Positions 30,251 to 32,956 of a DNA stretch of 64,000 nt are shown here, in pieces (position 1 is the first letter of the stretch; every line of letters begins with the position of its first letter). This DNA is from Myrmaecium sp. VS I D KN 1 (taxonomy: Eukaryota; Ascomycota; Dothideomycetes; Valsariales; Valsariaceae), in NCBI GenBank assembly GCA_019775845.1, contig JADQAV010000002.1, forward strand, positions 248,001 through 312,000, in the 5' to 3' direction. The position numbers and the translations under genes were made by a program. The notes beneath the pieces are model-generated. The model saw nothing but the letters and a program-made list of their open reading frames with translations. It had not been told where the DNA came from and ran no database searches.

Positions 30251-30401
30251 CAGTGTATTGTCATCGCCGGTGGTTAGCTTACGCCATGCATGTGGCTTAA
30301 GGTCCTGGTTTACACGAATAAAAGACCGTCCCGAAGCTGTTTTTTCCCTGCAACAAGACGTGCATCATGCAACGCTAACCACCGGCTGCGCCAATACACT
30401 G
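30251..30401. mobile_element. MITE, copy 1 of a 151-bp family
   Basis: 151 bp bounded by TA on both sides (30249-30250 and 30402-30403). The terminal inverted repeat carries the family core GCCGGTGGTTAGC on the left and GCTAACCACCGGCTGCGC on the right; its outermost bases (CAGTGTATTG/CAATACACTG) pair with each other but differ from the other copies. It has no coding capacity. TA bounds and short size suggest a Tc1/mariner-type non-autonomous element. Confidence 0.85.
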
Positions 30402-30815
30402 TATGTCCGGCTCGGACGCGGAGAAAGGAGACGGGATGCGGGATGAGGAGGCGGGGATGGAGATAAGCAAACCCCTCAGTTCATCCCTGGTCCACTCTAC
30501 CGCTCCTTGTCCCGGTGGGGTGTAAGACTGCATGGCACTATGCAACGTCGCGGGGTACGAATCCCGCCAGCTGAGTTGGGGTAAGACGGGATGTGGGACG
30601 GGGTGAGGCGACATGGTACGGTATAAAGCGTCGTTGCGTCCTTAAGTGTACTCACGTCCGTCCTCGTCCTTTGTTGGTTTTACTTTTCCTTCTTTCCACT
30701 CTATCTCGTTATTTGTCTACAGAGCGGAAAGAATAGCAGAGGACCCGACCACCCCACAAAACCTCAGAGAAGACCCAGCAAACCGACTATCCGCTCTTTC
30801 CCAAGGTCATCAACC

Positions 30816-31737
30816 ATGGCCAAACCAACCCCCGAAGGCCGCGGCGGCCTCCTCAAGCCCGCCATGCGCGACCTGATCCCGCGCGGCACCCACACGCCCA
30901 CGCCCCTCGGTCGGTTCCTCTACGCCCTCTTCCGGCTCATCGACCCGGTGCTACAATACTTCCTGCTGCACCCCTCCTACACAACGATCCTCTACCCCAG
31001 CATGCTACAACCCTACCTCCGGCGGCCATCTCCCTCCACCTCCCTCCCCACGTCCCTCAGCACCGGCCTCCCCCCGCTCGCCGGCCTGCCCCCGGCCCGT
31101 CTCGCCCTACTCCTCATGTCCCTCGGCAGCGCCGCCAAGCAAACCATCTGGGTGCTGCGCCTCTCCACGGACCCGATGCCGACCGGCTCCGCGCTCGTGA
31201 TCGCCAACTTCAACACCCTCTTCAACGTGCTGGACAGCGTGCTCTACCTCGCGCGTCCCTCGCACAACGCCGAGGAAGCGCTCGGCCATCCGACCTTGCT
31301 GGTGGGCGGCGCGCTCTACGTCGTGGGCTTGCTGGCGGAGGCGGCGGCGGAGGTGCAGCGGAAGCGGTTTAAGGCGGATCCGAGGAGCAAGGGGAAGTTG
31401 TATACGGGGGGCTTGTTTGGCTGGGTCAGGCATCCGAATTATGGGGGGTATTTGGTGTGGCGGACGGGGTTTGCGTTGGCGGCGGGGGGCCTGGGCTGGG
31501 CGGTGGTGGTGGCGGGGTTTCACTTTTGGGATTTTTATACCCGTGGGGTTGTGTTTATGGATGGGTATTGTGGGGGGAGGGTGAGTTCCATGTCTTCCCT
31601 ATTTTCTTTTATTTCTTTTTATTTCTTCTTTTTTTCTATGGATTGCTTGCTAACTCAAGATTTCCTTGCAGTATGGACAACAGTGGACGAGCTACAAGGA
31701 GCGGACGAAGTACAAGCTCATTCCTTTCATCTACTGA
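30816..31737 (+). CDS. DUF1295/isoprenylcysteine methyltransferase-like membrane protein
   Basis: Two exons, 30816-31580 and 31672-31737, with a 91-bp intron (GTGAGT, branch GCTAACTC, TTGCAG) give 276 residues. The splice restores a family-typical C-terminus, YGQQWTSYKERTKYKLIPF ending IY; reading through instead gives a Lys/Arg-rich nonsense tail. Several hydrophobic helices are visible (for example LLVGGALYVVGLLAEA and GLGWAVVVAGFHFW). The motif GLFGWVRHPNYGGYL matches the RHPNY signature shared by DUF1295 proteins, steroid 5-alpha reductase relatives and Icmt-type methyltransferases. It likely sits in the ER. Reductase versus methyltransferase activity cannot be told from sequence. The ATG at 30816 has good context (CAACC before ATG). 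Confidence 0.85.
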
Positions 31738-31856
31738 GAGGAGAGGGGAAAAGGGACGGAACAGGACGAAACGACGGAGGAAGAACGGAAGAGAGAAAAG
31801 AAACTCGCCGACCACGCCTTCCCTCTTCCTTCCTTTTCGGCCTTTTTTACGCAGGT

Positions 31857-31880
31857 GGGTGGGCGGGCGGGCGGGCGGGA
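31857..31880. repeat. GGGC microsatellite
   Basis: About six tandem GGGC/GGCG units in the 3' region of the DUF1295 gene. A G-rich simple repeat, possibly structured when transcribed. Confidence 0.75.
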
Positions 31881-32306
31881 GTGTGAACCTGGAATCTCCC
31901 GTCCACCCCGGTCGTGCCCACCACGGAACAAGGGGTCGGGGCGGGGAGAAGTGGGGTGCGGCTGGTTGGAGGGATGCGGAGAAGTATCAGATAGAGTAGG
32001 TGCAATACCTATGAAAATCTATCCCTCCAATGCTGGGGACGATCAATAGCCCTTTCTTTTTCTCTTTCGGCGACTTTTTTTTCGCCTGCTTTACATATCA
32101 CTCGCAGAAGTACAATACCTACCTACCCACTTTCATTCTCCTTGATGCCGACTTATGATGCCGTATCTTGTACATTGTAGGTAAGCACGGCACGGAACTG
32201 TTTCCGACCTTCCTTATCTTCCTATGTACCTGGCTCGGGAGACAGGGGATGAAGCAGGGAGAAGCGAAAAGGACAAGGGTGTGTGGAGGACGGGAGTGAG
32301 TACCTA

Positions 32307-32457
32307 CACCCCCTTGGCGCAGCCGGTGGTTAGCTTACGCCATGCATGTGGCTTGAGATCCTGGTTTACACGAATTAAAAGCTGTCCCGAGGTCGTTTAT
32401 TCCTTATAAGAAGACGTGCATGAAGGAGCGCTAACCACCGGCTGCGCCAAGGGGGTG
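32307..32457. mobile_element. MITE, copy 2 of a 151-bp family
   Basis: 151 bp bounded by TA (32305-32306 and 32458-32459). Terminal inverted repeats of 28 bp begin CACCCCCTTGG and continue with GCGCAGCCGGTGGTTAGC, and the two ends match perfectly. The interior shares TTACGCCATGCATGTGGCTT, ATCCTGGTTTACACGAAT-like and AAGACGTGCAT segments with copy 1. Perfect ends suggest it is the best-preserved copy. Confidence 0.9.
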
Positions 32458-32805
32458 TACATAGCAGCAGGTTCTAGGACGGCATGTTCCTTGCTTTCGG
32501 CGAGATACGTTAGCCGACTCAGCAGGATTCTGTTGGGTGCGAGTGCATCGAAGAGTTGAATGGGCGGGCGGGAGTGAGGAAGGGATGGCATCCGGGATCC
32601 TTTCCTTCCTCTCCTCCCTTCTACATCGTATTCAATGCACCAGCCTCAGAAAAGGGGAAAGGAAAGAGAGAGAGCACGCCTCAACAAACCAGGTGAACGG
32701 TACGGAGTACATACAGATCAACCGTTCGATGCCGTTTGGCCAAGAACGAGGTGCCGATGCATGTCTCAGCCGCCGAGCAAAAGAGGCGAGGTACGAATGT
32801 ACATA

Positions 32806-32956
32806 CACCGTCTCCGTGCAGCTGGTGGTTAGCTTACGCGTTGTATAAGGCGTAAGATCCTGGTTTCTACCAATCAATCGCCTTTCTGAGGCTGTTTTGC
32901 CCTTTAAAAAAGACGTGCATGAAGTAACGCTAACCACCGGCTGCACGAAGGTGGTG
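32806..32956. mobile_element. MITE, copy 3 of a 151-bp family
   Basis: 151 bp bounded by TA (32804-32805 and 32957-32958). The ends carry GTGCAGCTGGTGGTTAGC and GCTAACCACCGGCTGCAC. The interior keeps GATCCTGGTTT and AAGACGTGCATGAA at the same offsets as in copies 1 and 2, but the part after TTACGC differs. It lies 348 bp to the right of copy 2. Confidence 0.88.

Follow-up and report, generated by a model that had tools for sequence, protein, structure and literature searches.

Three 151-bp MITEs in a Myrmaecium genome belong to three subfamilies with different tips around a shared core

Stowaway MITEs are short, TA-flanked, Tc1/mariner-related elements of plants. The elements analyzed here are likewise short and TA-flanked, but their host is a fungus, and the likeness drawn here is one of description. 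A fungal parallel is provided by the mimp MITEs and the Tc1/mariner element impala of Fusarium oxysporum, where MITEs of uniform length also form several families. The mimp elements are described there as ∼180-220 bp long, compared with 151 bp here, and are thought to be derived from a full-length Tc1/mariner element (PMC5579170). The most common tip found here, the A tip CAGTGTATTG, does not fit by inspection the mimp pattern given in that account, CAGT[GA][GA]G... (PMC5579170), and the full-length copies found here are ∼2.1 kb long and decayed. The Tc1/mariner elements of Sclerotinia sclerotiorum are mostly 1.8-2.3 kb, with short TIRs, TA target duplication and MITEs; many copies are potentially active, no evidence of RIP is described, and the MITEs measure 481-813 nt (PMC4188875). 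The size of the full element, the TIRs, the TA target and the associated MITEs are shared with that system, whereas the present genome holds four decayed full-length copies and MITEs of 151 bp. Paired switching of tips is not named in the titles or abstract openings of the related literature that was searched.

The window, a stretch of 64,000 nucleotides of Myrmaecium sp. VS I D KN 1 (contig JADQAV010000002.1), was proposed in a sequence-only reading to contain three 151-bp elements, and their positions are borne out by the sequence, with TA directly outside both ends of each. Copy 1 (30251..30401, plus strand; subfamily A) lies between TAs at 30249-30250 and 30402-30403; its left terminal inverted repeat (30251..30278, plus strand) reads CAGTGTATTG, TCATCG and CCGGTGGTTAGC in succession, and its right one (30374..30401, minus strand) reads CAGTGTATTGGCGCAGCCGGTGGTTAGC on the minus strand. 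Copy 2 (32307..32457, plus strand; subfamily B) lies between TAs at 32305-32306 and 32458-32459 and has two identical repeats of 28 bp (32307..32334, plus strand, and 32430..32457, minus strand). Copy 3 (32806..32956, plus strand; subfamily C) lies between TAs at 32804-32805 and 32957-32958. All three stand in one orientation and have their interior and TIR core in common. The exact core that had been reported as shared, GCGCAGCCGGTGGTTAGC, is present at the right end of copy 1 and at both ends of copy 2, but the left end of copy 1 has TCATCGCCGGTGGTTAGC in its place and copy 3 has GTGCAGCTGG and GTGCAGCCGG; similarly, the supposedly common block GATCCTGGTTT is replaced by GGTCCTGGTTT in copy 1. 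The outermost 10 bases had been said to match between the two ends of every copy, which is true of copies 1 and 2 (10/10 each) but not of copy 3 (only 7/10).

The elements had also been described as flanking a DUF1295 gene and lying upstream of a Zn2Cys6 gene; more exactly, the former (30816..31737, plus strand, two exons joined by eye) lies between copies 1 and 2, and the latter, an ORF at 33165-34286 in which a Zn2Cys6-like cysteine motif was noticed by eye, has its start on the downstream side of copy 3. The DUF1295 gene is given as context only. PF06966 (DUF1295) was found on homologues of the protein whose ORF opens at 30816, the best named of which reach 48% identity, for example in Periconia and Massarina, both Dothideomycetes; the protein thus points to a fungal host.

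To establish the extent of the family, the genome (25.66 Mb, 66 contigs) was searched with each copy. At least 40 matches were returned for copy 1, at least 56 for copy 2 and at least 42 for copy 3, the last two sets including short matches to the TIR only. Every copy has at least 40 element-sized or partial matches at an E value of 5.8e-13 or lower, far beyond chance, in agreement with the proposal of one multi-copy family of MITEs. Merging 90 matches gave 54 distinct ones; those studied were the 46 that scored at least 115 bits, and the 8 with lower scores were set aside. The length, as projected from the query, is 149-154 bp in 41 of the 46 copies, and the TIRs are 28 bp long. A pattern made from the TIR core has 149 occurrences in the genome, compared with 35 when the pattern is reversed as a control; the first of the 149 were listed and part of them fetched.

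TA is present on both sides in 36 of the 46 copies. Among the other 10, one (L038) has CA for TA on one side, four (L016, L033, L066 and L071) carry small insertions in one arm, and in the last five an end is truncated or altered. The joined flanks of the 36 TA-flanked copies reveal a palindromic target preference, AYNTANRT: with percentages symmetrised over both sides, A occupies position -3 in 58% and C or T position -2 in 82%, with the complement beyond the invariant TA. Such symmetry around an invariant TA is as expected from a TA-specific integrase. The combination of copy number, TA flanks and target preference supports the identification as MITEs with a TA-type target; the three repeats are MITEs, that is, inserted elements.

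Several further observations concern individual copies. The insertions in L016, L033, L066 and L071 (4 of the 46 copies, read by eye) have the form TA-N(1-3)-TA at the inner TA of the A tip CAGTGTATTG, as expected from the insertion and excision of another element; they are candidates for the short excision footprints typical of the Tc1/mariner superfamily. One contig starts within an A-type TIR (CAGTGTATTGGCGCAGCCGGTGGTTAGC; L087:1-18, G000:C48:1-18), the sequence beyond being missing from the assembly. At L105:51-814, A-like subterminal sequence stands at both ends of several hundred bp of repeat-rich unrelated DNA, which reads as an enlarged or interrupted relative. Across at least 70 MITE places, 6 pairs lie within 3 kb of each other against 0.56 expected, 3 of the 6 being the window's own; the list of 70 omits several partial matches, which makes these counts lower bounds, and the window was chosen for its cluster. 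This excess suggests local hopping or shared permissive sites.

The tips of the 46 copies fall into a few types. With up to 2 mismatches in 9 bases allowed per class, both ends are of type A in 18 copies, of type B in 12 and of type C in 3, and these tips show at most one change from their type in bases 1-9. In the remaining 13 copies at least one end is truncated, altered or of a different type; a few uncertain classes in which a single end is labelled A (L074, L076 and L077) do not represent true A tips. The window holds one copy of each subfamily, and its copies seem individually matched because they are drawn from three subfamilies. That tips differ between copies was therefore a correct observation, but the difference lies between subfamilies: tips specific to single copies are ruled out, since the tips are common to whole subfamilies. 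The tip is mainly a mark of subfamily or lineage structure rather than the product of tips copying one another. The end pairs have not always been kept, as indicated by two chimeras (L016, whose A-like left tip contains a 4-bp insertion and whose interior and right end are of type B; L021, whose left tip is B-like and whose interior is A-like, with a right tip of yet another kind) and by the unlike left and right tips of L056, L076 and L077.

The variable tips around a constant core, and the fact that each tip pair plus TA is self-complementary or nearly so, would also suit a reading in which the inner part alone is the real element, with 10 bases of palindromic target DNA on either side of it. 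This reading has next to no probability: both the TA and the AYNTANRT preference are found beyond the tips, and it is refuted by the 18 A copies, which share one tip at different sites, and by the 12 B copies, which share another.

The MITE TIR core also occurs in TA-flanked elements of 2.1 kb, of which four copies were found (C57, C7, C42 and C19). The C57 element (C57:357690-359772), found through a TIR-core site at one of its ends, is 2083 bp long, with both TAs and a terminal inverted repeat of 33 nt at 85%. Its GC content of 0.268 and RIP composite index of 1.59 compare with 0.56 and -0.52 for the window. Searched against the genome (11 candidates scored), it matches the C7, C42 and C19 copies at 70-80% identity. 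Its matches among MITEs number six, including the chimera L016, all at B-type right ends with 97% over the terminal 33 bp. The left and right tips are CACCCCCGTT and CACCCCCTTT in C57 (9/10 matching), TACCCCCTTA and TACCCCCTTA in C42 (10/10), CACCGCCTTT and CACCGCCTTG in C19 (9/10) and CAGTCTCCTG and CAGTCTGTTA in C7 (7/10). The type is thus CACC in C57, C42 and C19 (TACC in C42) and CAGT in C7, so that lineage-specific tips are already present in the full-length elements; among the places examined, none is a full-length element with exact A tips. The 2.1-kb elements are the likely source of the MITEs. As a separate observation, the C19 element (G000:C19:211183-219540) is split by ∼6.8 kb with direct repeats of 212 bp (88%) at its borders, probably the insertion of an LTR retrotransposon.

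The RIP index of the MITEs themselves, which is noisy in 151 bp, is -0.18 for copy 1, -0.11 for copy 2 and 0.85 for copy 3; the last value indicates that the sparing of MITEs from RIP is incomplete. By eye, CA/TG sites in three B copies (L020, L012 and L027) show several C-to-T and G-to-A substitutions, which would suit an action of RIP on elements even as short as these.

The search for an autonomous element with the same ends yielded full-length relatives, but all four are decayed. A 188-aa portion of the decayed frame shows 55% identity between C57 and C19 and has matches at the four full-length places, with 18-20 stops in each. It has a D..34..E-like (Tc1-like) motif, read by eye only. In none of the searches was the frame recognised as a transposase: it matched no Pfam family, no PDB chain by sequence and none of the 369 candidates from a large protein search. 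Profile comparison (hhalign) against two DDE_3 relics from this genome gave no support, with a score of 12.9 where the highest of 100 shuffles scored 20.5. Genome searches for DDE_3 and DDE_1 returned only three pieces (G000:C9:81448-81597, C12:3568-3741 and C66:419298-419510), all with stops and in AT-rich surroundings, and the stretches fetched around them contained no match to the TIR core. From the TA, the target symmetry, the element length and the TIRs, we infer a Tc1/mariner-like family, whose transposase would be of that class.

Two sister families bear on whether the tips of one element need to match. Family D (∼163 bp) pairs a tip reading CAGTCTGTTT or CAGTCTATTA with one reading CAGACATCTG, and family E ends in CACTCTGTTG and CAGTGTCCTG. 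Both are multi-copy, with TA on both sides in 5 of 8 D copies and 4 of 4 E copies (among the copies listed, by inspection). Their own tips match at 5/10 (D) and 6/10 (E), against a mean of 5.48/10 between different sets (54 pairs, some of the sets being related). Because D and E have spread with tips that match near the between-family level, tip matching is not needed, and it is ruled out as a requirement for spread. The same figures count against the proposal that tips match since the transposase of each lineage reads both ends and selection fits the tips to it, as a specificity address. The matched tips of the two most numerous MITE subfamilies, together with the CACC and CAGT types among the full-length copies, speak for it; it is possible but doubtful as the main account, and is compatible with, not exclusive of, tips inherited as lineage marks. 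One locus of family E deserves separate mention: at L079:989-1618 (G000:C4:14266-14895), two inverted MITEs 298 bp apart are 99% identical to each other and 84-96% identical to the next five full-length matches, which reads as a recent local duplication or hop, a composite-like unit.

To compare the subfamilies along their length, consensus sequences were built from the 151-bp members alone (13 A, 8 B and 3 C; 12, 8 and 3 in one comparison). Between A and B, differences occur at 6/10 positions in each tip (12/20 overall), 3/6 at positions 11-16, 0/52 at 17-68, 15/55 at 69-123 and 0/18 at 124-141. Fisher tests on segments picked after the pattern was seen give p = 2e-5 both for the tips against the rest and for 17-68 against 69-123. 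A patchwork of this kind is not readily made by independent point mutation. The A/B mosaic is best read as interiors that would have been exchanged between lineages keeping their own ends. L077 combines D-type ends with an A/B-type interior. The C consensus shows no clean mosaic with A or B, the interior being different at 10/52 and 15-16/55 positions; between C and B the tips differ at only 4 and 2 of 10 positions.

The suggestion of co-evolving ends, or of ends copied one from the other, was examined by shuffling right ends among copies of one subfamily and counting the tip mismatches within copies. In subfamily B, 7 mismatches were found in bases 1-10 against 10.99 expected (p = 0.012), 46 in bases 1-28 against 53.0 (p = 0.004) and 39 in bases 11-28 against 42.0 (p = 0.07), all optimistic p values because the B copies are related. 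At base 10, the ends agree in 8 of 12 copies (4 mismatches against 7.99 expected, p = 0.013). In two B copies, L009_1501 and L018, the left end equals the right-end sequence (bar one base in L018). In subfamily A, 12 mismatches were found against 12.00 expected, but the test is powerless here because the right ends hardly vary. In 8 of the 18 A copies, base 10 of the left end differs from its counterpart on the right, which remains G; the left tip has thus varied with no corresponding change on the right. Within B, these comparisons give a modest hint of more end-to-end tip agreement than expected.

Such agreement could arise if the ends were kept alike by copying inside the element, through quasi-palindrome correction or inverted-repeat conversion with one tip as template. 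The B signals at base 10 and over bases 1-28, the two B copies with equal ends, the identical tips of full-length C42 and the joint change of both tips between A and B would all suit this mechanism. It is nevertheless unlikely, given the independent left base 10 of A, the bases 11-16 of A that remain unlike between its ends, the unlike tips retained by D and E, and the p value of B bases 11-28 alone. The paired A/B change is explained more simply by lineage-specific ends and interior exchange. A bolder version, in which the outer 8-10 bases would serve as a changeable paired address, with both tips switching together by end-to-end copying around a fixed core, is quite improbable. Co-evolving or mutually copied ends were thus an overstatement, given subfamily-wide tips and the unlike tips of D and E; the paired A/B change and a weak tip agreement inside B are the part that stands.

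The explanation preferred here, of Tc1/mariner-like MITEs with lineage tips and interior exchange, is held with good confidence as a whole. The three elements would be non-autonomous cut-and-paste MITEs of a TA-target, Tc1/mariner-like family. A transposase from the 2.1-kb elements would recognise the ends by binding to the conserved 18-bp TIR core, and would place the element at the TA inside a loosely palindromic AYNTANRT site. The full-length copies have decayed in the manner of RIP, and the short copies would mostly have escaped it, presumably by being too short to trigger it. The outermost 8-10 bases would mark the lineage and pass down together with each end pair: full-length tips read CACCCCC, CACCGCC or CAGTCT, and MITE subfamilies A, B and C each have one matched or partly matched pair. 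Interiors of A and B may have been swapped by recombination or conversion across shared sequence, each lineage keeping its end pair. This explanation is weakened by the tip agreement in B, which plain inheritance does not predict. Further points against it are the decayed frame that no search recognised as a transposase, the absence of exact A tips from the full-length elements among the places examined, the chimeric and unlike end pairs, the comparison of C with A or B, which gave no clean mosaic, and the RIP index of copy 3.

The family provides a compact, naturally occurring range of MITE end sets that share a single conserved core, which bears on how much the outermost bases matter. The mosaic suggests that interior modules move between end pairs. 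If the paired address were true, MITE lineages could pass from one transposase to another. It is also plausible that small elements of this family have survived parents that RIP destroyed.
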